A stretch of DNA of 64,000 nt from Daphnia pulex (lineage: Eukaryota; Arthropoda; Branchiopoda; Diplostraca; Daphniidae), in the NCBI RefSeq assembly GCF_021134715.1, contig NC_060025.1, positions 9,176,001 to 9,240,000 on the forward strand. Direction: 5' to 3'. Shown here piece after piece: positions 2,520 through 51,923 of this stretch. Position numbers and translations under genes: made by a program. The notes below the pieces were generated by a model. That model worked only from the letters and a program-made list of their open reading frames with translations, was not told where the DNA came from and did no database searches. The number at the start of each line of letters is the position of its first letter. The first letter of the stretch is position 1.

Positions 2520-2520
2520 C

Positions 2521-15663: not shown

Positions 15664-15671
15664 ATTGTCGC

Positions 15672-15761: not shown

Positions 15762-15763
15762 TT

Positions 15764-16790
15764 CCGTGTTTTTATCGAGCAAATTCTGTTGGAGTTCATA
15801 GACAGACTTTTGTTCTTCTGTCCAAGCCATTTCTTTTGTCAATTTTTCTTCTTTTCTATGGATCAGCTGCTGTTGAGTTTCTTCCTTTTGCACCGTCAAA
15901 TGCGCCAAGGATTCTCCAAACTCAAGTTCTTGCTTTTCCTTAAATATACGCTGCAAATAACTGTCAAGCATTTCCAATGTCCGGAAGCCATTTTTGATAT
16001 CTCTCTCCAATTGCTTGAGGGTGCCCACAGATTCCTCTCCGTCAACCGATTAATTTTGAGAAGAAGTACATCTGATGGTAAACTAAAAATATACAAAAGT
16101 GTTAGCTTGTGAAATCCTATTCAGAGAATCAATCTATTACCTCTTCTTCATCATGAGTAACAGTCCTCTATATTGATCAATAATATTTGTTATCACAATA
16201 TCTGACAGAACTGGAGATTTATTCTGCCTTGATTTTTCTGCAGCTTTCTTTTTCTGAAATGTATGAACAACATATGAAAAGAGGAATTTGAACCTGCTTA
16301 ATTGTTTAGCGTTTTACCTTTGATTTAGAAGCTCGCTTAGTTTTGGGTGGTGATTCATCTCCAGATGTTTCAGGTGTCCCTTGAAATGGGCTTTCACTCT
16401 TGTGAACATAACCTTCTGTAGCATCATCTATAATTAAAAGTTAGTTAGTTGTTTACAACAACCTTAAAAAATATTCTAACCTGAACTGTTGTTTTCTATA
16501 CACTTTTGTTTCTTTGTTGGAGGGAATGTTGGGACAGCGGTAGGTTTTAGATGTTTCTGCTTTGATGTCGGAATGTAGCAGTCTTCTGAAAAATGTTCCC
16601 CACAAATATATGTGTTGTCGCAGTTGTGCGCTTTCTTTCTCGTTTTAGACTGCCGAAATCCTCCATTTGCACTAATGGCCTCTAGCCATTTTCCTCTCAA
16701 AAGTTCATTTGATGGTAAACTGTGATAGCTTAATTTTTCCGTCTTGTAATTTGAATTTGTGCATCCAATGATATCACAGGTACGACCCAT
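15764..16790 (-). pseudogene. Broken copy of the THAP-coiled-coil gene
   Basis: Nearly identical to the intact gene at 36812-38161, with the same four-exon layout: 16481-16790, 16318-16427, 16141-16253, and ~15764-16081. The THAP exon is intact (C2CH with CGEH, and AVPTF). Three lesions break it. Exon 3 is 113 nt instead of 114, a one-base loss in a CT run near 16165. In exon 4 the sister's frame meets a TAA where the sister has TCA (about 16050). Homology stops at 15764, removing about half of the coiled coil. A transcript could still yield a THAP domain with a short out-of-frame tail. Confidence 0.85.
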
Positions 16791-17032
16791 TTTGTGCTAT
16801 TTACGTAGAAAGCAACAATTTACAATGCACTTTTACGATTTATTGATTATTTATGTTTGGCTTAACAAAGTGGACACACTATCACACCAACGACTCAACG
16901 AGTGAGTTGACACTATCGTCTGCTCTATTGACAAGACAGCGACGCCATCTATAGTCTCCACATTTCCCGATCCAGAGTAGGTCGATCTAAGAGGGAATTT
17001 TTGCAGTATTTGAATTTGAATCAACCTTTTCT
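15764..17032. repeat. Segmental duplication, copy A (broken THAP gene)
   Basis: Partner of 37128-38409. Small indels distinguish the copies: a 1-bp loss in exon 3, a 6-bp loss in exon 4 (SD codons), and small changes in the promoter. Confidence 0.85.
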
Positions 17033-19109: not shown

Positions 19110-22100
19110 TTAAACTTGAAGTAGCAAAGCTGTGCCGGCCAAAACCCATTTCGATGGTTTGTCTCTCGTTTTTAACTGGAAATTCCAGATGTAAGTCTCG
19201 GCTCTCTGTTGCGTGTGATAGACCGGGCATTCGTATGTTCCTCTAATATCTAATTTATCTTGCGTGACAGCCTAAAGTAATCCGATTAGATAAATGCCCG
19301 CTATTCTTTTGTTCACAAAAAAAATGGATACCTTGACGTAAATAACGGGCATGGGTGGATGCAGTTCTTTGAGTTTCGCTTCCGCCAACACACCAAGATT
19401 GGAATCCCATCGGGCACCTTCCAAAAATAAGCCATGAATGTAAACGCCTTCACGAGGGGCAGACCTGTTATTTTAAAGAAATGACGTCAGTTTCAATGCC
19501 AACATGACAAAAAAATTTAGGGGAAAAAAGAAAACGCACGATATTTCTTCACGGGTTTTTTTGGTAACTTCTACAGATAAAGTCATTCGATCCAGCGGCA
19601 ATTCCGCCCTCCTTGCGGCGGTTTGCATGACAGCAGTTAAGAAAGCCTGAGGACTGAAAAATCCTCCAAGCCAAACCGATGGAGGTGTCTAAACAAATAA
19701 TTAAACCAATCAATTGGGCCAAAATGTCATTTGATGTTTAAGTAAATACCTGGAAATCGACAAGCCAAATGTCGAGCTCTTTATGTCTTTGTTGTAAATC
19801 GGTAATCCAGGCGGTCAGAGGCAACATTGATGGATAGGCCAGTTTAGCCCACCGGACCGGAACTTGATCGAGGTAAAGGGACGAAGACATTTCCTCCATA
19901 TCCTCTGTCAAGGACAACTCTCCCTATGATTATACAAAAAAGAAAAACGAGTTATTAAGAACTCGTTCTAAAAATAATAAATAATAAAGCAAAATACCTT
20001 AAGTCCCTTGTCGAGTTCGCGGAGGGATCGTTTGGCCTCAATCAAAAGGCCATTGACTCTTTCGCATTCTTGAACGATAACGACCATAAAGGGCGTCTTT
20101 TCTTCCAATCGGCTACAAATTTCTACCAACGGGAACTCATCCGGTAACTTTTCGAGGATCTCATCCAAAATTTGTTTGACTCGATCGTCTTTGCTCAGCA
20201 CGGCGCCTCCACTGACACCGGCACCCTGTCTGGGCTGCAGTCCGAGAAGTTCACGGCACAACATTCCAGCGCTGCGAGTCAAGATGCCGATTTCAGCGTT
20301 GGGGTGTAATCCGTAGAGATAGGTTGATTCCGGCGGAAGAGACTCGTCAATATAACGCTGATATCCGGAGTAATCCCTGTTGGGTGGCGCAGGGAAATTG
20401 GGCGCTAGCAACAGTTCTCCGTCGAGTAGATCCGGTTGTAAAAGTTCTTCCAAATAGGCGCGGGTTAAACGTCTATCCCAGTCATCTGTGACGTGGCCAC
20501 CGTACATGATTTCGCCCAGCAAGTAGCGCAAATCTTCCCAAGGAACTCGACCGGAATTGCCGCTACTCTCGATGTAATTGAGCAACACGTTGACACTGAT
20601 GGTCAAGTCACCTGCAGAGAACGGGTACGTTCTGTTCCAGCCCTGAGCCCCAAAATGGCGACGCTCAGTCACGACGGCGTGGAAATAGCACAGAGTGAAC
20701 AGGAGCGTCTTGAATTCAGCTTCACGGGAACATTGCTCCAGCGCTTCTTGATCAAAGTGATCGAGTGCCATGTGTAGATTGGCTTTGATTCCACGAGGCG
20801 GCTCACTGGTCAATTTAATGCAGGATTCCAATAGACCCTGAGGGACGACGCTGGATGTCTTGGTAGTCGGCGGTTGAACGCTTAGAAAAACTCGGTACTC
20901 TGGGTGTGCATTGGCACCGAATCGTTCGAGAAGGCGTTCCAATGTCGGTAACCATTTTTTCACAAGATGGATGTTCTGTGGATATAAAAGGAATACCATT
21001 AACACTGAATAATCAGCCAATAAATCAAATAAAAGGGTATATAATTACTTGAAGAATGACCCAATGGCCATATTCGGATGATTTTTTCAGTACATTCTCC
21101 GCATTCCCTTCTTGGCCTTGTCCTAAACTGACCAGGTGTAGAAGGCCGTTGTCGGCTGTGCGACCCATTTTTCGTGCAATCTGTTCCACTTCCAGCAACG
21201 GATTGACACCCGTCGAAAGAATGAAACACAACGGTGTAGTCGGCGACATTTCCGCGACACATTGCGACAATTCAACGGTAAGCGATTCGACGTAGCGTGA
21301 TCCCAATTTCTCTTCAATGAAGAGGCGAAGAGCGTGAGACAATCGGTCGGGCCGCAAGGCTCTCAATACGCACAGGCGTTGGAGTGCAGATCGTGTTTTC
21401 CAATCTTGGGGGAGTCGTTCCCGTTCGGGAAATTCAGATTCGATAATTTTGCGCCATCTCTTAGACGAAGACTCGATATCTCGATCCAAGTGCCGGAACT
21501 CATCCGTCGACGATAAACCTGCGATATTTTCCAAATTATTACAATGAATTTACTTAATTTACGTATTTTGAATTTACTTTTGACAACGCTCCAGGTAGAG
21601 GGAGTGAGATAATCGACTGGACTGCCGGAAACGTTGAGACCAGAAACGACTGGGAAGCGGAGGAAAAAGTCCACATCAACAGGATCGACATCTCCTGAAG
21701 CTATGAGAATCTGGAACGTCTGTTGAACAGTGTAAACCAAACGATCCTGTTCAAACAATCCTCTGGCTACGTATTGGAACAGAGCGTAGGTGATTGAGTC
21801 GACCAGGTAATTGACTCGGATGGCCACATCCGCCGAAGGAGTGGCTTTTGCCAATGCCCTAAACAACAAATCAAAACATTTGACGATAACATTTTTACGA
21901 TCCTAAAAATTGAACAAAAAATTTTACCGTTGAAAAACCCCAATAAAGGATTTTAATGAAAATTGATAAATGGGATTCAGTTGACGCAGATCGCCAATGA
22001 TGAAAAAGAGAAGCGAAGCTCGAGATGCAGCTGGACGGTAGAGCTCACGGAATTCGTTGACGGCCTGAGCCGTTTGGGCCGCTTCAGCCGCTCGTTGTGT

Positions 22101-25100
22101 GATATCGTTGGCGGTAGCTTTAGTTTGTTCCAGAGAATCTACCAGCTGTGAATCGGCCAGGAAAGCTCCTTGAGCTTTAGAAAGTCGAAGTAGGAGATCA
22201 TCTTCAAGAGCTTTCAAAGCGATTTTAAAGTCATTTTCTTGTTTGACCAATTCAGCTCGTGAATTCTCCAAGTCTGGCCTTTCTGCCCGCACAACTTCAG
22301 CTAAAAGTTGTTCCTCTAGTCCGTCACGAGTGACGGTAAAGTTTAACAGAGTAGCCTGAGCTTGTAATTCAGGTCGAAAATGTGGGTTGGCCAATTTGGA
22401 GTGAATAATCAACCGGAAATCGGGATGCAAATCCACTTCCTTGCCGTCGATTTTAATGGCTTTTCCTTTCTTGACAAACTGCCGGCTCATCAGTGGATCC
22501 AGCGACGAATCCAGCTCTTCGTTTACATTTTCAATGAGGAGCACTCGGCCTTCCCGTAAGCAGCGCTCCAACATCTCGTGAAAACCTTTGAGCCCCAATG
22601 AAGTGATCTGCAGACGATCTCCATAATGTCCTTTGATCCACTTCAATCCTTGCAACTGAGGGTCAATCAATAGCGGCCAACGCTCGCAAGTTGTTAGAAT
22701 TCCGGCGTTTTCAATCGACATCCGGTCGGCCGGAAGTCCTTGATTGTTCCACGTAGCTATTTGCGCTGCATCGGCTAGAAGATTGACAGGATCGAAGCTC
22801 TCGGACAACAGGACTGGCTTGGTGGCAAGTCCGTTAAGGAAAGGAATCCACGCCTTAGAGAGCAGATGAGTTCGGTAACGTTTTGGGAAGATTCCGGCGT
22901 AAGATACGAAAGCTGTGGTAAGCAAAACATCGCCAGCCATCGTCAGTTCATTGCGACGAAGGAATTCAACGGCCTGGAACCAGCGAATTTTCTCAGATGC
23001 CAGTCCGTGAATCAGTCGATTGGCTTGGACTAGTGTCCGATTGGTGTGTTCCGCCTCTTCTTGGCATTCTCTCTTTTCAGCGTTGGCTCTCTCGAATTCC
23101 GCCGTCAATTGCTCCAGAGTGGCTTCCAGAGTTCTGACTTTGGATTTAATGGCGGCTTCTTTTTCTTGGGCTGCAACTAATTCGGCGTCGGCCGCTTCCA
23201 GCGCACGACGTTTGGGTTCAACGTTGCAGTAAACCTCGTAGAAGAGGATGATGTTGATGACCCACGAGCACAAGCCGGCAGCAGCCGATGATTTTGACGA
23301 GATGAATTCAGGATCGAACTCGGGATTATCCAGATAAGGATGGATTGCACGAATAACATCCGGATGGATGTGCTCTTTGTCGTAATTGATCAGCGAATCC
23401 AAAAATTGATCGACTCTTCCCATCATTATCTTTGATGACCTCCATGATCGATCCTTTGGGATTTTACCTAACAAGTAGAAGACAAATGAATACACATAAG
23501 TGCGCATCAATTTATATATTTACCTTGCGGGGATAAAAGGACTAGAACGGCGGCTGTCACGTTTGTTACGGCAAGCGGAGGTGAGCTGAATGACTTGAGC
23601 TCAGTCAGATTGGCTTTATTGAGGGTGTTGAGGGCTTCCTGGGCGGCAACTAAAGCTGGTTCGGCTCTAACCAAATCTTCTTCGCACTCACGCTGCCTTT
23701 GAGCTACTTCAATGGCCATTGCGGCCACACGCTTCTCTTCGGCATCGGCCAACAACTTCTCCTTACTGACTTTTTCAGTTTCGATACGCACCACGTTGAT
23801 TAAACGGTCAGCTTCTTCAGTTTTCTTGAGCAATTCAACTTCCTGGACGGCCAAAACTTCCTTCAAATCGTCCACTTGTAATGCAGCTACCCGCAATCGA
23901 TCCAGGCCGTTCTCCAGTCGCCCAATTTTAGCCTGGAGCAAAGAGGTCTGTCGTTCGAGAAGTCGAACAAAAAGCTGCAACTGTTCCAAAAATGATTTCG
24001 GAGTCGTGTATGCGTAACGGCCCTCTGTTTGCAGCATAGAGCGACAAGTGTCACTGACGCTCGAGTGAACATAGGCCATGAACTGCGAAGCGGAATCGAC
24101 GAATCCATCCGGTAGCTAACAAACAAGACAGGGAATATTAAATGGGAATATTATTTCCGAAATAACCGAACGCTTAACAGAACACTTACCGGAACAGTGA
24201 TGTTGGACAGATATTTGTATGAGACGGAAAGTAGAGCTTCGTGAGGCCACGGTAAGAAGCAATCGATGGCCATACTAGCCAATAGCGCAGGAAAGCGTTG
24301 CGTCCGTAATCGCAGAGTCGAACCGACAGGTGAACAGCACAGGATGATGTGCAAATGACGTCTCACTTGTTCTAAGAAGAAACGCCAGCACAAATCACGG
24401 GAATCCATCAAGCCCAGTGCTTTGACTTCATTGCGCACGGCCTGAACGTAGAAAACAAGTTAAATGATGAAGAACTGAAAATAAAATGAAATTTCTAACC
24501 TGAACGACATTGTCGATTTCATCGTCGTTGAAGAGTCCCGGAATCTCTCCAGCTGCCAAAAAATCATGAATTGGACCGAGCAGGGTCTCGTCGACTAGCT
24601 GGGCATCCGTGACTAGCAGCACAGTCGGTAGTTTCTTCAGTCCAGCTTTGAGGCAGAGAGCGGATAAATCAGTCCGCAATTCCGGAATGCCATAACCCGG
24701 TCGGATTTGCAGTTGAGTCACATCGTATCCGGCGACGGAAGCTGCTAACCTAGCTAAACTCTGTTTGCCGCTTCCGCCGACGCCGACCAAAAGGGCGTGT
24801 CCCCTCGGCAGCTCTAGGATTCGATTGATCCTGCAAACGTGCGAGATGGCATCTTCAAAGAGGACGAGCTCCATGGCGGGATTGAGTTCGTTATAGGCCG
24901 CCAGCGCCTGATGAAGAATGCCGTTGAGTGAAGTGTATCCTTCCGCCTCGCCGTATTTAGCGTCGCCCAGTCCGCGTGAAAAGTGGCAAAACAGTAAAGG
25001 TGTCCGCATGACACTGGCTTCGTCCACATCGGCCAGCGCGGCACAGCAAGACTCGAGCGCTTGATCCGACGCCGACTGTCGATCGAAGCATTTCTTGACC

Positions 25101-28100
25101 GTATCGACCAAGGCTTTTTTGAACATGTCGGCATCCTTGTCGTCGTTGAGTCGATCACCGTAGACGCGGTGAGCTTCGTGCGCCCACAGCCGGACCAGCG
25201 ACAAACTGGTCTGGACGGTTTCCGGTGTGCTAAGGAGTAATCCTTTAAAGAGAGCAGATAGATCGCGCAAGTTGAATCCGTAGAGGAACTTGCTGGCTGT
25301 CGCTTGGAAAATCAAACAAAGTCGTTGGTGGAGCGTCATGGAGGCCACCACCAAAGCCGGGACAAGATTGAGTAGATTGGGGGCGAACCGCTGCACCGGA
25401 TTGCCGAAATGACGCTGGAGCCACGAACCAAACATCAATTCCTGGGTTTCGTTGCTCGGAGTGCTGACGGCGAATGTGATGAAGTGACGATGAAGGCGGG
25501 AGTCGATGGTGAAAGTTCCAGCGGTGGGATTCATGCAGGCAATATACTGGACGTTTTTGATTTCTTTGGGTACCAGCTTGATTCGATCATACCTTTAAAA
25601 GCAAAATTAAAATTGAATGTTAGAAAATGTTATTTTGAGACCACGAAATTTACCAATGGCCGTAGCTAAGATGCTGTCGCAGTAGAGTGTGCGCCTGGGC
25701 AGTGCCGTAAATATCCATATGAGGTGCGTTGAAATCGTCTAAAAAGTAAATGATGTGCTTGGTTCCCGGGGGTCCGTAGCTTCTTCCGGCCTTCTTTTCC
25801 AGGGAATTTTCTAGTACACCTTGCAGCATCTCTGACGTCATGTAGTAGTGCATAGGTACGGCACGAGTGATGTATTCTTCAGAGAGGGAACCCAGGGCCT
25901 CTTCCACTAAGGCCGTTTTACCGCTGCCCGAAGCTCCAACCAGTAAAATCGGTTGGCCAGCTCGCATCAACAAATCGAGGAAATAGCGAAGGCAAGTGGA
26001 CTGGGCAGTTGGAACCAAAGTCGTGTAAATAGGCAGGTCGGGATCAGGATCAAATTTAGGGACTCGCTCAGTCCAGGGAACCAACGTTTGCAATTCCGTG
26101 TCGATACAGAAATCGAACACGGTCGGGCACCCGAATGCCACGGGGAATCGAACGGCTTTGAATTCGCTAACCCACCAAGTGCTGAAATCCGCTCGCTGGT
26201 TGCAATTGAGGTCACCGGGTAGAGCGGATCCGAAAGCCCAAACGCACGCAAAGACGAAATAAAGTTCAAACAGTTCACGAGGATTTTCTGATGTCATGAT
26301 GGCTGGTGTAAGTAAGCAATCCAGCAAGCGACAGAGCATTTGCAAATGGCAGATTTCCGGAATGGGAAGGATGGTCTTGAAACGTGTGCGGATGACTTCC
26401 AGGCAACTGGGAATATACTTGTCCATCAGGATTGTCAAGTACTGTCGTTCGCCCTGGTGGAGAGTACCGCCAGGTAAGTCGATATCCTCCAAAGGACCTG
26501 GTTCTTCATCAGTGCCCGAACCTTCAGTCCTCGATTCGATCCAACTGGTGATGTAAGGAGTCCATCCGAGGTCTTGCACGTTCAAATGGACAATGCCAGC
26601 TCGGGAAACAGATGAAGGGGTAGCACATTTCAGATGTGAAATTTCAAATAACAACCGCATTTGAGGCGTCAATGCAATACGCTCGTTGCTGGCTAGTGTC
26701 AGGATTTTATTGTCGTCCATCAATGTGTTGAGCGACTCGATCCATCTAAATAGAATTGCTACAGCTATCAAAATTTACATAATAAGAGAAATAATAGTAC
26801 CCAGGATCGATGTCACCATCGAGGACAATCCATTTAGGTCCCGCGTTTGGTTTGTTGGCGCTTTGAGCGGCCTGTTCTCGAAGGATCGATGACAACAAAC
26901 CGTCCCTCCATTCTCTTGTGGTTGGATTAACGAAGCCAAAAAGCTCGTCGGATGTCACAGCCTGTAAACGAAACAAATTCGTGAAAATCAAATCAGAAAT
27001 TTGGTACAATTAATTCGAATTTTACCTTTGGATCAATGTCCACACAGACGGGTCGCAATCTCATCAAGGCGTACGTTCGTAAAAGGGTCCGCCAGACTTG
27101 CGTTTTCCCCGTACCTGCTCGACCGAGCACGAAAACTGAATGTCGAACTTGAAGAAGTTCGTGTAACTGGACAACTCGAGTCACAAAAATATCCTCTGGC
27201 TGCAACTTTAAATCTAGAGCAGCTTGCCGAATAGTTCTTTCCATCGTAGCATCAGAGATGCGATTGAGTTCAACCGATGGGAAAAGATCACCCAACAAAG
27301 CCAAAAATACAGGAACATCGTCAGAAACCAAACGCGGCAAATTGGCATCGCGAAGAGCACCTGACAACATACAAATATTTTAAGTATAAAGGCGATAACA
27401 AGTGGAAGTAATTTATCGTTTACCTAATAATAGCTGCTCTTCGCTCAGATTGTGAATGGAATTGTTTCGTTTGGAAGTACCAGCCAGTACTAGCACAGAC
27501 TTGATAGCTCGTAATCCCCAATCGTAATGATCCTGTTTGGATAGCAGACGGCAGCACAGGGAGTAGTAGAGGGTGACCAACTTGCGGGCCAGAGTTCGGG
27601 CTTCCAGGAAACCCTCGGCGACCAACATGATTTCGCAAATAAGATCGGAATCAGGGACGATCATGGCGCATGGTCGGAAGAGTGATTTCAAGTTCTCTGG
27701 GAGCTCTGTTCTTCCTGCGTAGCCAGGATTCATAGTGACGAACATACCGACCTATTGTATTTTAAAAGGAATTGTATCAGTTGAAGTTCTAAATTGTCTG
27801 CATCTATTAACGACTTACTGTAGGCTGAAGTTGAATCTCTTCTTCCATCATAAAGAAGCGCTCTCGATGCTGACGTAGAGCGTCCAAGATGGAACGAATT
27901 TGGACAGCGACGACTGAGAGGACTTCAACCGAGATACGATTGAACTCGTCAAAACATCCCCACGCGCCCGTCTGGGCTAATCCTTTGTAAATGTTGCCGC
28001 ACGTTTTGTAATCCATTTGTTCTGAACAATTGAAGACATAGACCAACATGCCCAGAGCTCGACCCAGATCTTTGGTCGTTTCCGTTTTACCGGTACCAGC

Positions 28101-31100
28101 CGGGCCGGCCGGTGCACCTCCCATAGTGAGATGCAAGCTCTGTGTCAGCGTGATGTAACAACGATCCGTCAAAGGTGTCACTACAAGACGTGGAGTGTTG
28201 CCGAGATATTCGTACCTACAATTCACAGGGTTAGATGGCTATAATTTAATTAATAAATATTGAAGTTTAAAAATACCAATAACGAAATTGGGCATCGCAA
28301 ATGTTAACGAAACAATCCTTTTCCGTATAATTCCATCTGTTGGGCACCAAAATATTTGTTGACACATTAACGAATAACTGGAATGAAATTTGTACCTGTG
28401 ACGAAGCTGAGATTGCCATGCAAAAGCCTGGCTGCTTTCCACTTTATGCTGGACCAGTCGAGCGACAACGTCTCGTGAGTGAACGTCAATCGTGCACAGG
28501 GTCATAACTTTCTGCCTGTCGTTTGGACTGAGGTCACCTCCAAGTAGTCCAACAAGCGAATTCAATTGGACAATCTTCAAGAATAAATTATTAGCACATG
28601 AAAAACAAGTTTTACTTTTCCAAATAAAAATACCTGTTTTCTATGCAGATCCTTCATAGAATTTTCATAACCTTCTTCCAGCCTTTGGAAAGCTGCGCTG
28701 ACTTCAGCGTTCCATGCAATTTGAGACGCCGTCAAAGTCACTTGGGCTGGGAAATCCCAAATCCACGTGTCTTTAGTTTTTTCTTCCAGAATGGCCACAG
28801 CGTCTTGAAGTAAAAGACGCAAAGAGACTCGCATGGAATCGGCCAGCGCATTCAACCAGCCCTCCACTTGGCCGACGCACTGGATAGGTTTACACAGAGG
28901 AACATATTCTCCGTCTTTAGACCAAAGCCCCACCGCTTGATAAGGTCCTGCCGAGTAAAAAGGATCGGTTAATATTGATCTAGAACACCTGCAAATTTTA
29001 GTCTTACCATCTTTTTGGGTAGTTGTGATGGGTTCCAATTTGATGCGCGCCAAAGCGTCAAATAATTTCGTCAAATGCCTTTGAATCAACTGCGGACTAT
29101 TGCCGTTGGAAAGAATGTCGAGTAAATCGGCTGTAGAGACGAAATAAAAGCGCGGAAAGTCGACACGTTTCGATTCCAGGTATTGGGCAAGTGCTTTCTC
29201 GCAGAGCTGCAACTGGGAATCGATGCGGTGCAAGTCGTCGAGGACGTTGGGACGTGTGGCCACGCTAATGACGTTGGGTTTCAGTAGTAAGTGGCCGAGA
29301 AGTTCTTTGAAATTGGCGTTGGTCTCGTCAAAACGATTAGAGTCTTCGGGTAGTTGTTGACGAATATCGTCCGTGCCAGAACCGGCAAAAATGGACTCTA
29401 AATGGGACCAGGAACGCTGGACTTCACACCACAATGCCAGCACTTGATCTGCAAGTCCCAAGCGACGCTGCCAGTCCAAGACATCGGTCATCAAATGGGC
29501 AACGTACTTGGAACTGGCCAAAGTTTGCAATTGGACCTAAACAAAAGAATTGGTTGGTTATAACATCCGCATGGAGGTGGTAGACGGTTATCACCTGATT
29601 ATCTTCCAGAGTTGCGATGAGCTCATCTGATGCTTTCAGCAAAGTCAATCCCGTTCGAGCGTGTTCTTCTTTGCCCAACTCCAGAGTGGCCCAAGTAGCT
29701 TCCAACTCTCGCAGCGTTTTCTCCATTGACACTTCACGCACGGCCCGGTCAACTACCGATCGCACTTCATCTTCGTAACGGTGAAGATCCAAGGCCAGCA
29801 AATCTGCAAGTGTAGTATCGATACCAGTCACCAGGCTGACAGTAAAATTGTCTCTAAAACACAAATAAAAGTCCATAAATTATCTGATAGTAGTACTATA
29901 ATTTAAAGCCAAACTCACCTGAGGAATGTTTTGCGTTTAGTGGCTTCAATGAGTTGAGTCCAATGTCGTTCACGTACAGCAGGATTTTGCAATTCAGAAA
30001 TAGCCTAAACAAACACATTGATCGTGAGACACTAATACAACGAATTAGATTTTTTTTTAAATAAACCTTGAGTGAAGTCAAGAGATCTCTGACGGAAGCA
30101 TCGAGTCCAATATAAGCGTCCCATGCTCTCATCTCCTTGTCGAGACCGCGGATATTTTTAGCAAAATGTTTACATTCAATTTCCATTCGCTCGACATCGA
30201 TTTCCTTCCAGTGCGTCGTCTTCCAGTTGTCAACACTTGATCTGATAACGTACGAGTAGTCCCACAACTGCTTGATCATAATCGTCTCGCGTCGGCAGTT
30301 CTTCAAGCCTCGAAACTCGGAGACGGGAACTTCAAACAGAGCGGCCCAGTTGGATAATTCTTCTAAATATTTCTCCATGGCGCAGATACGGTGATGGATA
30401 TGGTCGAGGGTCTTGTAAGGATCCTCACAATTGAACCGGAAAAAGTCTTGACGATGGAATTCGTCTCTAAATTGAAGTTGCCTCAACTCGAATGAGCCCA
30501 ACTTCTTGCGAACTGCTGCGATCTCGTTGGCTTGCAGCGATGCGACTTGTTGTTTGGCTACATGAGCAGATTCTTTGATGTCTTCCCACCTTTCAGGAAG
30601 ATGTTTCAGTTTGAGAAGGATCTCTTCGGATAATTCATTCTCCGATTCCCTCAATAGTGTAGCCGCCTGAGAATAATCAGCAAATTAATCATTACATTGA
30701 ATCATTTTAAAAGTTAACATGATTAATTAATCCCACCTCTTGCAGTGGAGCAAAGAGAGCATCGGTGCCCGACTGTCTGGAACGTACTTCCGCCAAATGA
30801 CCCATCATGCGGAGGAGAGCCTCGCGTCCATTGTGAGAGTCTCCGTTCTCATTTTCACCTGTGCGCCAGACCAAACCTTCTTCGGCTTCTTGCAAGAATG
30901 TCTCGAGATCGCACACACTGTCCATGACGTAATTGGTAACGTGTTCCAGTAAGAGCACTCGCCATGATCGCATTATGTTTTTGATGCTCTACAAAATAAA
31001 AGCAGTTGTGAAAATGTTGCGTTGATTTAATTCAATTGAATAATACCTGAAGGGCCGGTTTGACGTTGAGTTTCAGTTTACAACTTTTTCCAACCTTCTC

Positions 31101-34100
31101 CAATTCTTTGATGCAATCGGAGGTGGTGACTTTCCATTCCGTAAGTTGGACCAGTTGCTGTCTAAAGTGCGGCAGGGTGGCTGGATTTGCAGGGGCGTTG
31201 TCATGTACGTATTCGCCCAGCAGACAGGTGTGATGCAAAAAGTTGTGCAAATAAATATTGGGGTCCGTGTTCCAAAGGAATGAATACTGCTCCAGCGATT
31301 GAACAGATTCGGAAACTCCAGTTACGGCGTTTGAGACGGTGGCGTTCAAGTCTTGTTGGAGCGTCATAACTTGCGTGTTATTGTCGACGCTGTGCGGGAA
31401 TTGAACTTCTTTGCTGAGGGGTACCATTGAACTGGCCACTTTGGTGACACCCGTCATTAAAACGGCGAATTGCTGCATGATGCCTCCTGAGCCCACTTGG
31501 GCTTCCGTCCCGTTATTGATTGGTGTCGTTAGCGGCGGCTGGAAGCTGATACCTTCCGTTGTTATATTCAACTGTAGCTCGTATAAATTGCCTTTATTAG
31601 TCATTTCGATAAAGTGCTGGTACGTGTTGGTGATTGCTTTGAGTAAACCTGGAAAATATTACGAAAGGTTAAGTGTCAAATTTATCAGGAACCAATGTAA
31701 CAGTGGATAAGGATTGGTCTGGAGTGAAAAACGACGTTTTCTTTTCTAACCTTCGAGAATGATTCCGTCAATCATCTCCAAATACGTGACCCAATCTGAT
31801 GCTGGTAAGTCTGGCATCATTTGCTGGGCTTCTCCGACAATCAATCCAATCTTCTTGGAGATGGCAGCGTATTCGCTGTATTTCTTGTTGAATAATTCAA
31901 CCAACTGTTCGCCAGACGGTAGCTATTTTTGCGGGGGGAAACAGATTGGTGAGAATTTCGATACCTAGCTTAGAAGTTAGAACATAAAAAAGAAAAAAAA
32001 GGGTAATTCATACCATTCCTTCTTGGAACTCGACGATGGGAGCCTTGGACCATCCATTCGCGATAGACTGGACGGTTTCGGCAGTCGACGAAAACTTCTT
32101 CATGGCTTGATGCAGTCGCAGTGTCGTCTCGGCCATCACGCGAAGCTCATCCTTCACCGTGGTATCTTGACTGCCCCACGTCCATGTCGAATTCTGGCAC
32201 TTTGCAACAATTTCAGCCTTGATGGTCAATAGGCGTGGCTCGAGTAGACAGCGGGTGGATGGAGTCAGGGAAGCCTCGGTATTGCTGCAGCAACTGACGA
32301 TGATATCTACCAACTTCATCTTGATCTTGAGTGAACCGTAAATGGCCGTCCAGGATTCCCAGCTGGGCGGAACGGTGGAGCAATCCAAAATCTGCTGCAG
32401 CTGGCGGCACTCGGTAACCATTCGGGCCATGGCGTTTTCTGCTCCGCTCTGTACCCGCCCGTTTCCTGCCTCGGCGACGGTTAAAAGCGGACGATGAATA
32501 GCGATACGATTCATCCGGGCCGTCCACAATTCCAGGTGTTGATTCATCTTAACGTGGACAGCGTCTTCCAAGTGTTTGTGTTTTTCCTCCAGGGTTTTCA
32601 TACCGACCACATCGCTTTCAATTCCAAGACTGTTACAAGCGGCCAAATGACCACGGGCCCGCCTGCTGATTTGCTGAATTTGTCGGACGGAACTGACCAA
32701 ATCCAGGGACTCGACGGCATTCGGTAGGCTCTTGAGGTAATCGGAACAGGTAGATATTTCTTGTAGGGCCAAGGTCACTAGACGAGGATAACTTTCGCGG
32801 ACTTTCTGCATCATGGCCGGCCTGTCGAGGAAACTGCCCAGCAGTTGAATGACTCGGTAAGCATTCAAAGGTGTCGTGGCATCAGTGAGGGCGTTACTGA
32901 CAATCGAAATCATTTTCTCTTCTAGACCAACGACTGAATGTTGAAAATCGACGGCTACGGTTTCGAATTGATGGTTGTCCGGGTCCATACAGTCGCCAAA
33001 CTGACCGCTGACAACTGGTGCTTTAATATCGCAAAATTGGTTGCAGATATTTTGCACCTGAGCGGTTAAACTCCGTCCACCCATGGCGCTCAATTCGACT
33101 CGGCTCAGTCGTGAGAATTCTTGAATCAATTGGAAGATTTTGACGATGGTCACCAATCGTTTCTCGAAGATGGTCACTTTTTCAAAGACGATCTGCGTGG
33201 GCGGATTCCAAAGTTCTTTCGCTTCCGATCGACTCAGCGTTAAAGTGCAGCGTTTGGCTTCACGGAGACGTGTAGTCAGGCTGGGGATATTTTCACGTTC
33301 TTCATTATAAAACTGGCGAAAATGACCGAAAATGGTTCGGGCAGCCGCAGTCTTTTCCATGGCTTCTTCAATCTCCCAGGTGAAGATGGAACGTGAGTCG
33401 AGAAAGACCCGACATCGGTCAATCAAAGCATTTCCTACTTGTCGGATTAGATTGGCTAATTTGATTGGCTGGCGGAAATAAGCGCAAGTGCACCAGACGA
33501 GTGAGGCCGTGTGGAGCAAAACTCGTAGCGGTTGGGCCATTTCAGTCACATCAGCCGCTTCCAGGTTTTCCAGTGGTTTGATGATGGGTTTGAGGTGAAG
33601 CGAGATCTCTTGAGCTTCAGCCAGAGCGGCAATCAACCTGCGCAAAAGCATTTTGAAAGTGGCAGATTGAGCACTGCCGATTTCTTCTAGCGTAGCGGCC
33701 ATTTGACGGACGACTCCTTCTTTCAATTGCTCGAAAATATTTTCCAAATCTTGGCTGCGGTTGCGCCAGTACATCACTTCGTCATTGAGAGACGCTCGCT
33801 CGCTAATACCACGCTCTTCGGCCTCTAGTAAAGGTGTTAGCTGAGTGGTCCACTGCTGGACGCAGCTTTCCATTTCCATTCGACTTGGTAGCTCGGTCCT
33901 GTATAAAACGATGCTTAATATTCAATCAACAATGGTTGTTGTTTACTTATTTTACCTAGCTGCACCTGTCCAGGGCCAATACAAAACCGTTTTGCCATCA
34001 AGAAGACCTCGAGCTCGATTGACAGTTCCGCGAATATTTCTAGCCTGGCGTTCCAATTCCATCGATACGGCAGGTGGCCATGGCAACTGCAAACTCTGAT

Positions 34101-36811: not shown

Positions 36812-38161
36812 CTAAGAAGTGTACCGATCTAATTTATTAAATCTTTCTGCAGCTTTATTTTGGATTAACTTAATTTCAAGCACTTTTGACTCTTCGACTT
36901 TTTGCTTGAGATCTTCAATGAGATCCTTCTTTTTTATCTGCAAAGTCGATTCTTGGTTGAGTAGTTCTTCCAGTTTAGTCGAGCGATTGTCTTGGAATTC
37001 AGAGATTCGTCGGTCAAGATCTTTTACTTTCTCCTCCAGGACGAATATCTCGTCATTGGTCAAATTTCTCAACTGTTTGATTTCTTCTTCCCTTTCGGAC
37101 AAGATTTTTTCCATTTCTCTAAAGTGCTCCGTGTTTTTATCGTCGCTGAGCAAATTCTGTTGGAGTTCATAGACAGACTTTTGTTCTTCTGTCCAAGCCA
37201 TTTCTTTTGTCAATTTTTCTTCTTTTCTATGGATCAGCTGCTGTTGAGTTTCTTCCTTTTGCACCGTCAAATGCGTCAAGGATTCTCCAAGCTCAAGTTC
37301 TTGCTTATCCTTAAATATTCGCTGCAAATAACTGTCAAGCATTTCCAATGTCCGGAAGCCATTTTTGATATCTCTCTCCAATTGCTTGAGGGTGCCCACA
37401 GATTCCTCTCCGTCAACCGATGAATTTTGAGAAGAAGTACATCTGATGGTAAACTAAAAATATACAAAATTGTAAACTTGTGAAATCCTATTCAGAGAAT
37501 CAATCTATTACCTCTTCTTCACCATGAGAAACAGTCTCTCTATATTGATCAATAATATTTGTTATCACAATATCTGACAGAACTGGAGATTTTTTCTTCC
37601 TGGATTTTTCTGCAGCTTTCTTTTTCTAAAATGTCATTCAACATATGAAAAGAGGAATTTGAACCTGCTTAATTGTTTAGCGTTTTACCTTTGATTTAGA
37701 AGCTCGCTTAGTTTTGGGTGGTGATTCATCTCCAGATGTTTCAGGTGTCCCTTGAAATGGGCTTTCACTCTTGTGAACATAACCTTCTGTAGCATCATCT
37801 GTAATTAAAAGTCAGTTAGTTGTTTACAACAACTTTAAAAAATATTCTAACCTGAACTGTTGTTTTCTATACACTTTGGTTTCTTTGTTGGAGGGAATGT
37901 TGGGACAGCGGTAGGTTTTAGATGTTTCTGCTTTGATGTCGGAATGTAGCAGTCTTCTGAAAAATGTTCCCCACAAATATATGTGTTATCGCAGTTGTGC
38001 GCTTTCTTTCTCGTTTTAGACTGCCGAAATCCTCCATTTGCACTAATGGCCTCTAGCCATTTTCCTCTCAAAAGTTCATTTGATGGTAAACTGTGATAGC
38101 TTAATTTTTCCGTCTTGTAATTTGAATTTGTGCATCCAATGATATCACAGCTACGACCCAT
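36812..38161 (-). CDS. THAP domain - coiled-coil protein
   Basis: Four exons (37852-38161, 37689-37798, 37512-37625, 36812-37453) join in phase to 391 aa. Residues 1-92 are a THAP zinc-dependent DNA-binding domain: CDIIGC, the conserved W (GKWLEAI), CGEHF and the AVPTF box. A basic stretch at ~141-155 (KKKAAEKSRKKK) may be a nuclear signal. Residues ~195-391 are a long coiled coil rich in E, K and Q. THAP proteins bind specific DNA and often recruit chromatin regulators; the target here is unknown. The coiled coil is homologous to the C-terminus of the THAP-bromodomain gene at 39718-42859. A broken copy lies at 15764-16790. Confidence 0.88.
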
Positions 38162-38409
38162 TTTATGCTATTTACGTAGAAAGCAACAATTTACAATGCA
38201 CTTTTACGATTTATTGATTATTTATGTTTGGCTTAACAAAGTGGACACACACTGTCACTCCACCAACGACTCAACGAGTGAGTTGACAATATCGTCTGCT
38301 CTATTGACAAGACAGCGACGCCATCTATAGTCTCCACATTTCCCGATCCAGAGTAGGTCGATCTAAGAGGGAATTTCTGCAGTATTTGAAATTTGAATCA
38401 ACCTTTTCT
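37128..38409. repeat. Segmental duplication, copy B (intact THAP gene plus promoter)
   Basis: The block is nearly identical to 15764-17032, covering most of the THAP gene and about 250 bp of 5' flank. On the promoter side similarity ends just after AACCTTTTCT in both copies. On the other side it ends inside the last exon. The two copies are 21 kb apart and in the same orientation. Confidence 0.85.
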
Positions 38410-38565
38410 TACAAGAAAGAAGAAAAGCACCAGCAGAAAAGATTTGAAATTTCAACTATTGTGGACATTTAAAAAAATACAAAAATTAATGCAAAACATT
38501 TTCAAAGTATATTTTTAACGTTTCCAACAAAAACATGGATGTTTTACAAATCTATTTCATTTGCC
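38162..38565. other. THAP gene promoter and 3' flank of the small zipper gene
   Basis: 38162-38409 is duplicated upstream of the THAP pseudogene and so probably contains the THAP promoter. 38421-38536 is a 3'-flank block repeated at 39440-39562. Confidence 0.55.
38421..38536. repeat. 3'-flank repeat, copy 1
   Basis: It shares AGAAAAG(C/A)ACCAGCAGAAAA, AAAATTAATG(C/T)AAAACATTTT and AACGTTTCCAACAAAAACAT with 39440-39562. It lies just downstream of the stop of the small zipper gene, and its partner lies just downstream of the THAP-bromodomain gene. Confidence 0.75.
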
Positions 38566-39081
38566 TCAACTGTCAACTCTCCCCTTCCCCGTCCCCATGC
38601 TTCGACCGGATCGACCCCCATTTGAAGAAAAGTGTTCCATAAGAACTTCCAGTGGAAGGTCATTCAGCACAGCCTCAAGCCTGGATTGATGCTCTACCAT
38701 CATTCGGGAATTTAGTACACACAGATCGTCAAGAGCTTGGGCCAATATAAATTTAATTTGTGACATCTTAGCAAGTTTCTTTCTCAATGACTCATTTTCG
38801 GCTTGCAATTCAATCAAATTGGGAGATGGCTCGCCAGAGGATTCACTGCAACACAGAAAAACAAATGAATACTTAAATCTTGAGCAAAAAAAAACAAAAT
38901 ACAGTTATTGTGGTTCTCTCTTGCAAAGTTGCATCATCCTCATGCATTAAGCAAGTGGAAAGATGGATACTAATTAGTAATTAAAAACACTAATTAAAAA
39001 AAAAAATAACCTTGGTGTTGTTGGTTCACTTTTATTCTCTGCTTCTTGACTGGACTGGACAGCTGAAGTACTTTTATCCAT
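38566..39081 (-). CDS. Small leucine-zipper-like protein, unknown function
   Basis: Two exons (39011-39081 and 38566-38845) with GT-AG borders give 116 aa: a serine- and glutamate-rich start (MDKSTSAVQSSQEAENKS), a zipper-like helix (LIELQAENESLRKKLAKM), a second amphipathic stretch (LAQALDDLCVLNSRMM) and a glycine-rich basic tail (SNGGRSGRSMGTGKG). I do not recognise a family. Its position between two genes with coiled-coil C-termini, and a 3' flank shared with one of them, suggest a fragment of the same shuffling process. It could also be a genuine small dimeric nuclear protein. Confidence 0.6.
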
Positions 39082-39717
39082 TTTTCTTCTTTGCAACCTT
39101 AAGAATAATAATGAAAAAAAAAGATAAAACAAATGAAGTAATGAAAATAAACTTTTGTCAATTTTACCGTTTATAAGCAGAACCTTTGCACGACTCGAAT
39201 CAGAAAGCGACTGAACTTCTTTTCAGTAGAGCTTCACGTGAACTGTGAACTGAAATTGTCAGGCGCTCACAGAAGGGGTGGGAAGTCTGGGATTTTTACC
39301 CTTGAGTAACAGACAGACAGGGACATCATAAATGATTGAAATAAATTCAGCGTGATGTATTATGAAACGGAGATGTCATTTTCATTATATCCAAGGTTAT
39401 TACTACCCTACCCCTTCTAAACAGTTTTCTCTACAATCAAGAAAAGAACCAGCAGAAAAAATTTCAACTTTTTAGCTTTTGTAGACGCTGGCATTAAAAC
39501 AAATACGAAAATTAATGTAAAACATTTTTAGAGTATATTATAAACGTTTCCAACAAAAACATTAAGAATGGAAAAGGATTGGGGGAAAATGTCACCTATT
39601 TTTTGTTTGGGGGCTTTTGGGTCTGGAAAGAAAGAATGAGTTGCACTGGTTTTGAACACTAAAAAATGCATAATACAGTCGAGGTAGGAACACGTTGAGA
39701 TGGCAATTTCTGAGTAA
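39082..39717. other. Spacer between zipper gene and THAP-bromodomain gene
   Basis: Contains the 5' flank of the small gene and the 3' UTR of the next gene, including the repeat copy at 39440-39562. No further gene is seen. Confidence 0.5.
39440..39562. repeat. 3'-flank repeat, copy 2
   Basis: Diverged copy of 38421-38536, about 160 bp downstream of the THAP-bromodomain stop codon, in the same orientation. Confidence 0.75.
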
Positions 39718-42700
39718 TCATCCCATGGCATCGTTGAGTTCAAGTGGATCCGATTCGGCAAGTCGGTCCAATTTGTTCAACCTCTCTTCCGCTTTCTTAT
39801 GGCTGTCGGCTATGGCTTCTTGATAAGCAATTTTGATTAATTTCATTTCCAGCATCTTACTGGCATGAATGCGCTCTTTGAGATTACAAATAATGTCCCT
39901 CTTTTTCGTATCCATGTTGGAGATTTGATTTTGTATGGAAGTCGCTATCACTTCCATGGTAGCCAACAGGTTGTTGAAATTGGCTTTCAGCTCACTTATT
40001 TGACGATCGAGATCTTTTTCTCTTTGCTTTAAACTCAGTAATTCGTCGCTGATTGGCTTCAGATTGTTTTCCATCTGCTTGGCTTGCAGTTTACTCTCTT
40101 CCAGCTTCTTTTCAATGGCACGAAACTGTTGCGGGTTCTCTTTGGCGTCCATTAAATTCAGTTCCACTTGAAGTTTCTTGACCACTATTTGCTGTTCCAA
40201 AAAGGCCATTTCCTGTGTCAATTTCTTGTTTTCGACCAGAACAAGTGGACTGTGAACTTTTTCTCTTTCTTCGGCTAAACGCGTCAATTTCAATATCTCC
40301 GGCCATTGACTGTCCGCCGGTCTGCACGTCTCGTCGCGAGTTTGCTGAGACATGGCGACACGAAGGGCGGCGATTTTCTGCTTCTGCTCCGATAGCAAAT
40401 TCCGTTCTTTGACCAATTCAGACTCGATGGTCGTCACCAGCGTACGGAAACGATTTTCGATGTCAACTTCCAACTGCTCCTTCTCATTCAGATGTTGGAT
40501 TTTATCTTCCAAAAGGACATCGATGGCACAAGCGCAAGAATTTTTGGGATAAATCGCCACCGTATTATCGGATTTATTGGCACAATCCATTGCAGCAGTC
40601 GCGGTGAGTGGTGCAGTCGACTGGCTTCTCTCGTTGGAGCTGGGCGTTGCATTTCCGTACGGTCTCGGGGTAGAAATTTTCTTCTCCTGGAACAGAAAAG
40701 ACAAATTAATTTTCTTTCTTTGACTAAATTGACACGTATACTAACCTTTGATTTAGCCGTAACGACTCCGTTGATTTCTTCTGTAGGCTGTGAGTGAGGC
40801 GAGTTGAGTCGACTGGCGGAACGAGGAGTGGGAGGAGCAGGTTGATCGCATTCTTTAGCGACGGATGTGACAGGGTTTTCCAGGATTACTTCATCGTTTT
40901 GACTTTTGTACTTTTCGACGAGCTGTTGGTAGACGGAAGTGATGGCGTCGGTGGAATCGCGGTTGCGGATGACTTCGAGACACAGGTCAGAGATGATGGA
41001 CGCGTTCCGGACAATGTCCGACTTTGGTTCGTTGAATTTGTAGGCATTGGAGCAGATGGTGCGGACGTCGTACTGGACGGCGGCCAGGCGCCGATAAAAT
41101 CGGTTGTCCAGTCTCGCCTTCACCGTCGACAGATCCATCGGCGGATATTTAACTACAAATACGTAAAGCGGGTAGGCCTCAAGGTTGACGGGCGCAGTGA
41201 AAGGTTTGGCAGCCGTCAGGTTCATGATTTTGCTGATTCCGGACGAGATGCGGTCGCACTCAAAGTCCATGTCACCTACTGGTGGCCAGTCCACGATCTG
41301 AGGTTTGTATGAGGCGCTGTCGGGGCAGTCGATCGATCCTGGCATGTTGACTTTGTTGACGGACCTAGGCCGCCCTCTTGGCTTCTTCGTGGTTTCGTGC
41401 AAATCCCAGGGACTCAGGCGTTCCATTTCGCCATTTTCCCATCTGATGCGGTAGCAGAGAAACAAGGAATTTGGGCAGTGCGTGCTGAAAGGTTCCCGCA
41501 TCTCAATCTGTCCTTCCCGCCACGAGTCATTCCTGTAGCTGCGGAATCGTTCACCGGGCTGCCAGTCACGCCGAATAGCCCAATCGTAAAACTGTTTGAG
41601 AACCAAGAAATCGGGAACTCCGTCGACGTTGTGGTACTTGACGGTAAACGATCCGCCATTCAAGACTCCCGACTTTGTTTCTAGACCGGATTCGGTATCG
41701 GGCGTAAGGCGAAGCTAATATAATTAGGAATATTATCATTATTATCCACAGATTCTAGACATTCAATTTTTTACCTTCAAGCAGAAAAGTCTGTTTGGTG
41801 GTTTAATATCGTACTTGATTCCGATTATTTTCACCAACTCCTGCTCATTCAGCCAAGGAAGCGAACGCAGATGCAGGTCGGAATGTTTGTGCTGATTAAC
41901 CGCATCCACGTAAAGTTCATGACCTGTAACAGATAACAAATACAGGTGAATAAACTGACAATGAATGATAAACAATGCAAAAAGTTACCTTGTCTAAAGT
42001 AAATGACTTCGTCGCCCATTTGGGGTTGGAAAGGAGTTATGCGTGAGTGTACCGAAGTCAAGAGATCGGACGGACGCAACGCTTCGGCGGGCAGATATAA
42101 ACCGCTGTTCAACGTCACGGGATTTGATATTCTAATTCGAGCACGTTTAGCCGGGATGGGTGTCCACATTCTCTCTGAACTCTCGACCGTCCAGTCGGAA
42201 TAATCTGATGAAGATGAGGAATGGTCCAATTCGATGTCGTCGCACATTTCACTGGCCCTGTCGCTCTCGAAATCATACGAATAAACTTTGGCACGATTGG
42301 AGGCAAAGTCTTCGTCGGTCATGGATCTAGTCGACCTGCGACCTAGTAAAATGTGAAACGAAATTATTCGACGGAATAAAATAAATGGAGGACAAAAAAT
42401 ATTTTGTTTACCGGTAGATGCAGGTGTGTGGGGCGATTTTTGTTGTTGGGGACTTGCATAGCTTCGAGGCGAACGTTGGGAAATGCCGTCAAAGATGGAG
42501 GCTATTGGAAAAGAAAAACATGTGTTACGAAGTAGCAATATTTGGCCAGTTGACACACTGCTTTGTTAACCTGGGAATATTTTTGGAAGGGCCCCTTGTC
42601 TCAGTCTCCATTGCAGTGGATGATACTGGTAGAAATCTTTTTTCCCATTGATGACGATTGTTTTACCTTTGATTATGTCATGTTCTTGGAAGTGCAAAGC

Positions 42701-42859
42701 GCAAACTCTGTGTGTCTGCTTCAAAGGGCCTTTCCTTGGCAAGATGTTTTCCCATTTCTTACGCTGGTGATTATCCTTGGGGACCCAAAACAATGTGTAC
42801 TTTTCCGGATTACTCTTTAGTGTGTTTTTGCAATGTGGGATGCAACACTCATTTGTCAT
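39718..42859 (-). CDS. THAP / cryptic-Tudor / bromodomain / coiled-coil chimera (BRWD/PHIP-derived)
   Basis: Six exons (42571-42859, 42412-42501, 41989-42342, 41775-41923, 40746-41714, 39718-40686) join in phase to 939 aa. Residues 1-96 are a THAP domain: CCIPHC, KKWENIL, CALHF and ALPKIF. After SSSSDYSDWT come a PHIP-type cryptic Tudor (~234-395; MGDEVIYFRQG, ELVKIIGIKYD, DFLVLKQFYD, LSPWDL), an AT-hook-like KKPRGRPR (~404-411) and one bromodomain (~440-545; PMDLSTVKARLDNRFYRR, YKFNEPKS with the acetyl-lysine-binding Asn). A coiled coil (~683-925) ends the protein. PHIP/BRWD proteins normally begin with WD40 repeats and carry two bromodomains. Here the WD40 part is replaced by THAP, and the second bromodomain by a coiled coil related to the neighbour at 36812-38161. 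Likely role (inferred): a DNA-targeted reader of methylated and acetylated histones. Confidence 0.82.
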
Positions 42860-49941: not shown

Positions 49942-51923
49942 TTAAGGCGGTGCTGCTCCTCCTGGAGGTGCGGGACCCGCAGACGGAAGGACTACACCCT
50001 GCTGCTGTCTAGACCCTGACGGCTGATTGGCCGCCTGCTGTTGCTGCTGATGGGCGAAAAGTGACAGGTGAGAGTAGTAAGGGGCAAGGGCCGGATTCAA
50101 ATGCTGGAAAAGTGATGCCGTCGATGGAGGTGGGCCGTAAGGTCCGGCGGAGGCGGCCATAGCCTGCGCCATGGCGGCCGCCATTCCCGGATGATGGTGA
50201 GGATGGAACGGGAAAGGACTACTCGGTTGTTGTTGTTGTTGTTGTGTGGTGGCCGGATTGCTTTTGCCGTACGGATGATAACGTGCGGCTGACAATGGAC
50301 TAAGGGGCGGAGTCGGATAGGCTGCCCGCATCATCGATGATGGATGGGCCGATGGATGAGCGAAAGCTGCCGCGCTCACTGGACCGTCCGATGAATTGGC
50401 CGCCGAGAGATTCGTGTGCGTGCGGAGGTGCTGGAGGAGATCGTCGGATGAGCCGAACCTTTTGCCGCAATAATTGTCACCCACGATCCAATTGCAAACG
50501 TATGGCCGGTTGTTGTGCGGCGAAGACGGGCCGGGACTGGACGACGACATCATCAAGTGCTGGGCAGAAATCGGGACTTTAAGGTGGTCGCATTGGACGC
50601 CCAAACCGCATCCGGCCGTGCACACCATGTGAACTCCTGTCGACGAAGGTGGTGGTGGTCCGGAATTGTTGTTGTTGTTGGCTGGGCATCCGGTGCAGTA
50701 AGGATCACGACACGGAGGATTTGGATCAGATTTGGATCCGGCGCGATTGATTGCAGCGTTGCCATATTGTTGTTGTTGCATGGCTTGCTGGAGAGCGGCG
50801 GAATAAGCGGCGGCCGGATGGCCGGCCAAGTAGCCGCTCATCATAGCAGCAGCGGTGGATGTGGGGATAAAAGGATTGTGTCCGGCGGCGACGGAAGAGG
50901 AAGATTTGGCGGCATTCAAGGCACTGGCGTAGGCGCCGAAATCCATGGCTGACGGATGATGAGGTGGACCGTAACCCCCACCTCCTCCTCCTGCGTAAGG
51001 AGATGAATGCGGAGGAGGCGGATAAGGGGCTCCGTAGGGTCCACTGCCGCCCATTCCGGCGGCGGCGGCCATCAGGGATTTGTAACTGTTGGCAAGGGAC
51101 AAGGCAGCGACGGAAGAAGAAGAAGATGAATCGGGTGATCCGGCTAGTGCTGCCGCCATCATTAGGTGGTGGTGGTGAGACGATGGATGGATGGAAGAAA
51201 CGCCAGGATGTTGTTGTTGTTGTGACGGGTGTAGGAGGAGGTGACTCATCAATCCTGTTGACACACTGGCCGCCGTCGTTGTCGTCGGTGATTGGTGATC
51301 CATCGGGAGACCAGCAGACGATAAATTCTGGCCCGCCGCTGCTGCTGCTGCTGGCCCACCGCCGCTGGATCGATTGGGGTTTTTAGGTGAAGTGCTTTTC
51401 GATCGGCGATCCGTTGGCGTCAGTCGGTTGTTGTTTTCGTTGTTGTTGTTGTTGTTCTTTTTGTTTTTAGTCGTTGTTGGAGTGATGACTGCCGGATCGC
51501 TGGATCGGTTGTTGTTGTCGACGGACAAGACTGGACTGCTTTTGCTTTCACTTTTCTTGCGTTCCGTTGTTGTTGGTTGTGTTGTTGTTGTTGTTCCGCT
51601 GGACGATAAAGTGGACGACGACGACGACGTTTTGACGGCCGGAGGATCTGCTCCGATTTGACTGCAAGTCTGGGCCAGCAGAGCCAACGGACTTTTCTTC
51701 GAATCCATCTGGATGATCCGTCCGAAAAAGTAAAATAAAAAAATGTCAGAAAAATGCCAAGCCCCGTAATAAAATGGAAAGAAAAAAGAAGAAACTGGAT
51801 TGATCTAGACGGGGGTCATGTGAGTTTGGAGTAGAATCACGTGAAAATGTCATATACCGTGGTGGGTGGTGGCGGGTTGAGATATTCCGGTCGCAAATAC
51901 GGATTGCCGTTGGATGTAAGCAT
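49942..51923 (-). CDS. elB: NET-family zinc-finger protein, elbow B-like
   Basis: Two exons (51858-51923 and 49942-51708) give 610 aa. The start MLTSNGNPYLRPEYLNPPPP is followed by the Sp-like motif SPLALLAQTCSQIGAD. Then comes a long Ser/Ala/Asn/Gln-rich region, a Buttonhead-type CRDPYCTGCP box, and one atypical C2H2 finger (VCNWIVGDNYCGKRF...HLRTH). The AYPTPPLSPLSAARYHPYGK segment follows. NET proteins (Drosophila elB and noc, vertebrate ZNF503/ZNF703) are nuclear repressors that pattern appendages, eyes and tracheae. I call this copy elB because of the LRPEYL start, from memory of the fly proteins. The elB-versus-noc assignment is uncertain; family membership is not. It is transcribed away from the paralogue at 62209. 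Confidence 0.88.

Follow-up and report, generated by a model that had tools for sequence, protein, structure and literature searches.

A probable THAP–BRWD/PHIP chimera with a C-terminal coiled coil in the Daphnia pulex genome and a possible family of WD40-free relatives

BRWD/PHIP proteins (BRWD1, PHIP/BRWD2, and BRWD3) locate chromatin through histone marks and recruit CUL4-DDB1. A preprint ties the PHIP/BRWD cryptic Tudor to H3K4 methylation, links the bromodomains with acetylated H3, and connects BRWD3 with CUL4-DDB1 (PMC10081218), and another paper describes PHIP ChIP overlapping promoters with H3K4me3 and H3K27ac (PMC13057301). The plant auxin response factors (ARFs) are the nearest published precedent that we found for the protein described here. 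According to the available sections of PMC11685440, a PHIP gene is proposed as the source of the ARF Tudor pair, into which B3 was inserted; cage positions are common to ARF and PHIP, two ARFs complemented no less well when their cages were mutated, and the non-ARF relatives found in reference-proteome searches carry WD40 and one or two bromodomains. Those sections make no mention of a THAP or zinc-finger form.

The Daphnia pulex chimera is an animal case, which was assembled in another way and retains the bromodomain. Like the ARFs, as these are described in the available sections of PMC11685440, it unites a DNA-binding domain with a Tudor pair of PHIP origin. In ARFs, B3 lies inside the first Tudor and a PB1 domain is present, whereas the chimera has THAP in front and a C-terminal coiled coil, and no Pfam match to B3 or PB1 was found in it at E up to 1. 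A Tudor profile built from four Daphnia paralogs picks up five sequences of ARF structures, with E from 4.2e-5 (6sdg, the best) to 0.0085. Literature searches that combined the THAP domain with BRWD and bromodomain, with bromodomain, fusion, and domain architecture, or with Daphnia and bromodomain found no paper; broader searches, judged by titles and the starts of abstracts, found no THAP-bromodomain fusion, a few of the papers containing both terms. The original prediction knew of no described protein with this domain order; these searches found no THAP-BRWD fusion, and the ARFs are a precedent for a PHIP Tudor joined to a DNA-binding domain.

The window analyzed is a 64-kb stretch of DNA (C9:9176001-9240000), and the genome searched was its own assembly (133,188,837 bases in 13 contigs), the single assembly behind all paralog comparisons. 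BRWD_AD, the Pfam family of the second Tudor, occurs at four places in this genome: the chimera on C9, C11:4346515 (C11), C5:1733359 (C5a), and C5:8664373 (C5b). Three of the four are above the cut-off exon by exon; C5b is below it, yet reaches 70.5 bits with its exons joined. C11 is the canonical gene, with WD40, BRWD_AD, a first bromodomain (BD1), and a second (BD2), and the two pieces scanned upstream in it are both above the Pfam WD40 cut-off. The other three loci have no WD40 nearby: the best match to WD40 had an E of 0.71 for the chimera (the 64-kb window, by tblastn with the WD40 part of C11 as a rough query), 0.76 in 30 kb around C5a, and 2.3 in 20 kb around C5b. WD40 exons upstream of the chimera within the window, considered as a candidate, were rejected on the first of these values.

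The chimera is predicted on the minus strand from 42859 to 39718, where six exons join in frame into 939 amino acids (aa) with no internal stop. Exon 1 (42571..42859) contains the start codon and the THAP domain (42575-42847), and exon 2 (42412..42501) would add, spliced in frame with phases 1 to 1, a linker rich in Ser, Pro, and Gln. An acidic and Ser-rich stretch with SDYSDWT opens exon 3 (41989..42342), which then enters the cryptic Tudor; C11 has SSEYSDWT at the matching place. Exon 4 (41775..41923) encodes the first Tudor-like half, with flanking intron positions as in C11 and tblastn matches to C11 and C5a. Exon 5 (40746..41714) encodes the second Tudor (BRWD_AD, 41382-41576), an AT-hook-like RGRP motif (41367-41378), and BD1 with its FNEP Asn (41001-41237). 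The coiled coil and the stop codon lie in exon 6 (39718..40686), recognized by heptad periodicity and by homology to the tails of C5a and of a neighboring THAP gene. The introns measure 69, 69, 65, 60, and 59 bases with phases 1,1,1,0,0; all are GT..AG, and the 15 bases before each AG include 10-13 pyrimidines. These junctions are predictions, and the six exons in compatible phase that had been proposed for the locus, coordinates included, are borne out by the open frame and the intron ends.

Pfam places THAP at aa 5-95 (8.1e-14, 52.6 bits against a cut-off of 23.9, the whole model covered), BRWD_AD (PF25313) at aa 341-405 (1.9e-21, 76 bits against a cut-off of 40), and Bromodomain (PF00439) at aa 454-532 (5.3e-19, above the curated cut-off). 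The motifs SDYSDWT (from aa 172), RGRP (aa 407), and FNEP (Asn 522) fall between or within them, and heptad periodicity is raised at aa 670-930 (z 5.5 over shuffles; -0.3, -0.8, -0.5, and 1.4 in the THAP, linker, Tudor, and bromodomain parts). The THAP signature residues are visible in the alignment with THAP relatives, the signature being a C2CH zinc module with Pro, Trp, and Phe plus a C-terminal A(L)PxxF. The predicted domain order, from THAP through SDYSDWT, cryptic Tudor, AT-hook-like motif, and one FNEP bromodomain to the coiled coil, was thus recovered by Pfam, motifs, and heptads. The same is true of a THAP joined to a BRWD/PHIP core that lacks WD40: the 939-aa protein has no Pfam match to WD40, and a second bromodomain is absent both from the Pfam scan, which finds one stretch, and from the genome search, which has 1 of its 39 bromodomain matches at this locus. 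Since the best 60 of 373 PDB matches of the full chimera (BRD4 the best) include no PHIP/BRWD chain, the assignment to BD1 is made through the paralog C11, which has the same FNEP. PDB searches by phmmer gave 11 matches for the Tudor region, the best with an E of 0.4, and 7 for the THAP at E up to 10, the best being THAP11 (0.005). Among bacterial/archaeal and viral contigs, 14 and 1 pattern stretches, respectively, were found for exon 5, with no relative among them.

Compared with BRWD/PHIP proteins, the chimera is alike in its SDYSDWT-like motif, its double Tudor (BRWD_AD), and its BD1 with the Asn, and two of its intron positions are common to canonical C11. It is unlike them in having no WD40 propeller and no BD2, in the THAP in front and the coiled coil behind, and in the AT-hook-like motif between Tudor and BD1.

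The original prediction had described one chimera; C5a is a second one, in which C2H2-type fingers, a BRWD core, and a homologous coiled coil are combined. The C5a model (C5:1735203-1731053, minus strand), drawn by eye, contains C2H2-type fingers, BRWD_AD, BD1, a weak BD2 (E 3.1e-5), and the coiled coil, and it is provisional because two donors in the finger exon are phase-compatible by eye. Its 5' exon encodes a zinc finger pair (zf-Di19, 9.1e-7) homologous to those of the adjacent upstream gene (the pair scores 173, the best of 500 shuffles 62). Like the chimera, C5a has a BRWD core without WD40 nearby and the homologous coiled coil (40% identity, E 1.7e-40); unlike it, C5a has C2H2-type fingers in place of THAP and keeps the weak BD2. 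This second chimera and the shared coiled coil argue for part of a small modular family rather than a single oddity. C5a lies in a tandem pair (C5:1731053-1740628, minus strand), following a probable THAP-C2H2-coiled-coil gene; that the THAP and the fingers there belong to one gene is probable. C5b has BRWD_AD and BD1 only, and its N-terminal 132 aa, spliced by eye, have no Pfam family match. In the C5b region (C5:8663413-8667716, plus strand), a long low-complexity frame follows, with internal repeats by reading.

The coiled coil also ties the chimera to the gene next to it, a relation that the original prediction had overlooked. The neighboring THAP-coiled-coil gene (36812..38161, minus strand; 4 exons, 391 aa; Pfam THAP, 9.3e-14) lies 1.6 kb downstream of the chimera, and the two coiled coils share 38% identity over 175 aa (E 5e-24), with a z of 19 when 1000 heptad-preserving shuffles were drawn. 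At 300 shuffles of this kind for each pair, z was 43 for the chimera and C5a, 18 for the chimera and the neighbor, and 15 for C5a and the neighbor. The coiled coil is rare: when the 133-Mb genome was searched with the C5a tail, the three matches were C5a, the chimera, and the THAP neighbor, and the neighbor's tail matched four places, namely, itself, its partial copy, the chimera, and C5a. The THAP-finger gene beside C5a gave z values of 9 with the chimera, 7.5 with C5a, and 3.6 with the neighbor, where the best of 300 shuffles (115) exceeded the real score (114). Its membership in the coiled-coil group is weaker because it is missing from both genome searches (E up to 0.01). At least 137 THAP matches are listed for the genome (150 of 181 candidates scored), and three among the matches listed are within 10 kb of a BRWD_AD match: those of the chimera, of its neighbor, and of the gene next to C5a. 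The neighbor (38161-36812) is one of the THAP proteins that end in a coiled coil; these resemble the chimera in having an N-terminal THAP in its own first exon, and the chimera differs from them by the histone-reader core in the middle.

Three minor features were seen around the neighbor. A partial recent duplication of it is present (15645-17017 against 36812-38393, minus strand), the two stretches being 96-99% identical in four blocks and lying about 21.37 kb apart; in the copy, the coiled coil is cut short and the third exon is one base shorter and hence frame-shifted. A two-exon open reading frame (ORF) of 116 aa without a Pfam or NCBIfam match (38566-39081, minus strand) lies between the chimera and the neighbor. 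A direct repeat of 71 bases, 89% identical (38466-38536 and 39492-39562), is located in what are likely the 3' ends of two genes, the chimera and the small gene after it.

Intron positions and sequence identities give some indication of how the chimera arose. C11, C5a, C5b, and the chimera agree in the site and phase of two Tudor introns (one is the intron 3' of exon 3), and a third intron, present in C11, C5a, and C5b, has been cleanly lost in exon 5 of the chimera. Because two introns are common with the canonical gene, the BRWD core came by DNA duplication, and a processed (intronless) origin for this part was rejected on the same ground. The core is 65% identical to C11, 62% to C5a, and 57% to C5b, in a comparison of four paralogs with no outgroup. 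A 5-residue insertion common to C5a and C5b is absent from the chimera and C11, which speaks against a simple sister relation between the chimera and C5a, their common coiled coil notwithstanding. The closest relatives of the chimera's THAP are THAPs on C3, C5, C11, and C8, at 41-45% identity (43-45% for C3, C5, and C11), and its identity to the neighbor's THAP is 28%. The coiled coils match and the THAPs are of different subfamilies, so an origin of the chimera as the neighbor with a simple BRWD insert was rejected. Since its THAP is nearer to those of other contigs than to the neighbor's, at least one end must have been exchanged or have diverged fast, and exchange of the THAP first exon would be the simplest reading.

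We consider it probable that the locus is one gene of exon-recombination origin, encoding a 939-aa protein with THAP, the BRWD cryptic Tudor and BD1, and the coiled coil, that would act as a DNA-directed chromatin adaptor. The exons could instead form two adjacent transcription units, with exon 1 as a short gene for THAP alone and a second gene, for the BRWD core and the coiled coil, that begins at a Met in exon 3. An in-frame stop directly past the exon-1 donor means that an unspliced exon 1 would yield a THAP-only ORF, the Met in exon 3 is present, and the coding frame stays open across intron 2, which would allow read-through from exon 2 into exon 3; intron 2 and the exon-1 donor are accordingly the two less certain boundaries of the model. 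Against two units, exons 1 and 2 are separated by just 69 bases with a plausible donor and acceptor, and neither AATAAA nor ATTAAA occurs in any of the five introns, which leaves little room for a gene border there. The exon-1 donor is supported because a GT after ...FP stands at the same phase-1 place in 4/4 of the closest THAP relatives; the neighbor's gene model too has a phase-1 intron after its THAP exon, and the shared coiled coil is found on THAP or finger genes as well as on BRWD chimeras. Three close THAP relatives have their start Met at the position in the alignment where exon 1 has its own, making an N-terminal extension unlikely. We infer from these features that exon 1 is spliced onto the remaining exons; a single predicted transcript across the locus has strong indirect support, and the two-unit arrangement appears improbable. 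A decayed or misassembled locus with no product, a reading that the truncated and frame-shifted copy of the neighbor at 15645-17017 brings to mind, is very improbable indeed: 939 codons are open, the same kind of chimera is present elsewhere in the genome, and pN is far below pS in three parts (0.21 versus 0.68 for Tudor-BD1 between the chimera and C11 over 303 codons, 0.34 versus 0.81 for the THAP against its nearest relative, on C3, and 0.36 versus 0.74 for the coiled coil against C5a). Judged by these comparisons, the chimera's parts are under purifying selection; with synonymous sites near saturation the estimates are rough, and they speak for constraint, not for a fine ratio. The locus is probably a real and functional chimera.

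The gene could also be single as modeled and its BRWD core no longer a methyl-histone reader. In the WWEG stretch of the second Tudor, the chimera has changed W to R at aa 360 (column 140), where C11, C5a, and C5b all have W. In other Tudor domains, this strand position often supplies a cage aromatic. H3K4me binding by the chimera is thus not assured, and methyl-lysine binding may be lost through the change. Counting for each paralog the columns on which the remaining three agree, 27/168 are changed in the chimera, compared with 29/170 in C5b, 12/153 in C5a, and 8/149 in C11. The four-paralog Tudor profile, moreover, matches ARF structures, and no ARF cage mutation reported in the available sections of PMC11685440 lowered complementation. 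On the other side, the first W of the WW pair and other Tudor aromatics are kept, as is the FNEP Asn in a bromodomain above the Pfam cut-off; with FNEP kept, acetyl-lysine reading by the chimera is likely. We regard loss of methyl reading as the overall account of the core as rather unlikely. The PHIP-like Tudor of the original prediction is present as BRWD_AD, and its reading of H3K4me is the part that the substitution at aa 360 puts in doubt.

Under the preferred reading of one recombined gene, a duplicated BRWD/PHIP gene would have lost its WD40 propeller and BD2, and this copy would have recombined at the exon level with THAP or zinc-finger and coiled-coil genes. The product would presumably be nuclear and most likely a DNA-sequence-directed chromatin adaptor, in which THAP would select the sites on DNA, an active histone state would be recognized by the bromodomain and perhaps also by the Tudor, and dimerization, possibly with the neighboring THAP-coiled-coil protein, would be the task of the coiled coil. 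With the propeller gone, it should not serve as a CUL4-DDB1 substrate receptor. We infer these DNA-binding, histone-binding, and partner roles from the domains present. A DNA-binding domain that replaces the propeller would separate the two jobs of BRWD/PHIP proteins and offer a natural test of the reader core alone.

A broader proposal, which we find evenly balanced, is that Daphnia has a small modular family in which a WD40-free BRWD/PHIP core is combined with different zinc DNA-binding domains (THAP on C9, C2H2 on C5) and a shared dimerizing coiled coil. Such a family would parallel, in an animal, the way in which ARFs arose. The tandem BRWD-less siblings, one THAP-coiled coil and the other a probable THAP-zinc finger-coiled coil, would then be likely to dimerize with the chimeras or to compete with them for the same DNA. 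If true, two more chimeras within a single crustacean genome would show that transcription factors readily take up this core and that the DNA-binding domains in such proteins are exchangeable.

Other features in the window were assigned mainly by reading. Three tandem ORFs of about 360 aa (939-5982, plus strand) are MATH-BTB (speckle-type POZ)-like, an ORF at 12213-13286 (plus strand) resembles the C-terminal part of an R2-type non-LTR retrotransposon, and a long ORF series (19968-33921, minus strand) is like axonemal dynein heavy chain. A 620-aa ORF (49942-51804, minus strand) has low-complexity runs and one C2H2-like finger (zf-C2H2, 6.1e-4, below the cut-off) and resembles the nocA/elbow (NET) family.
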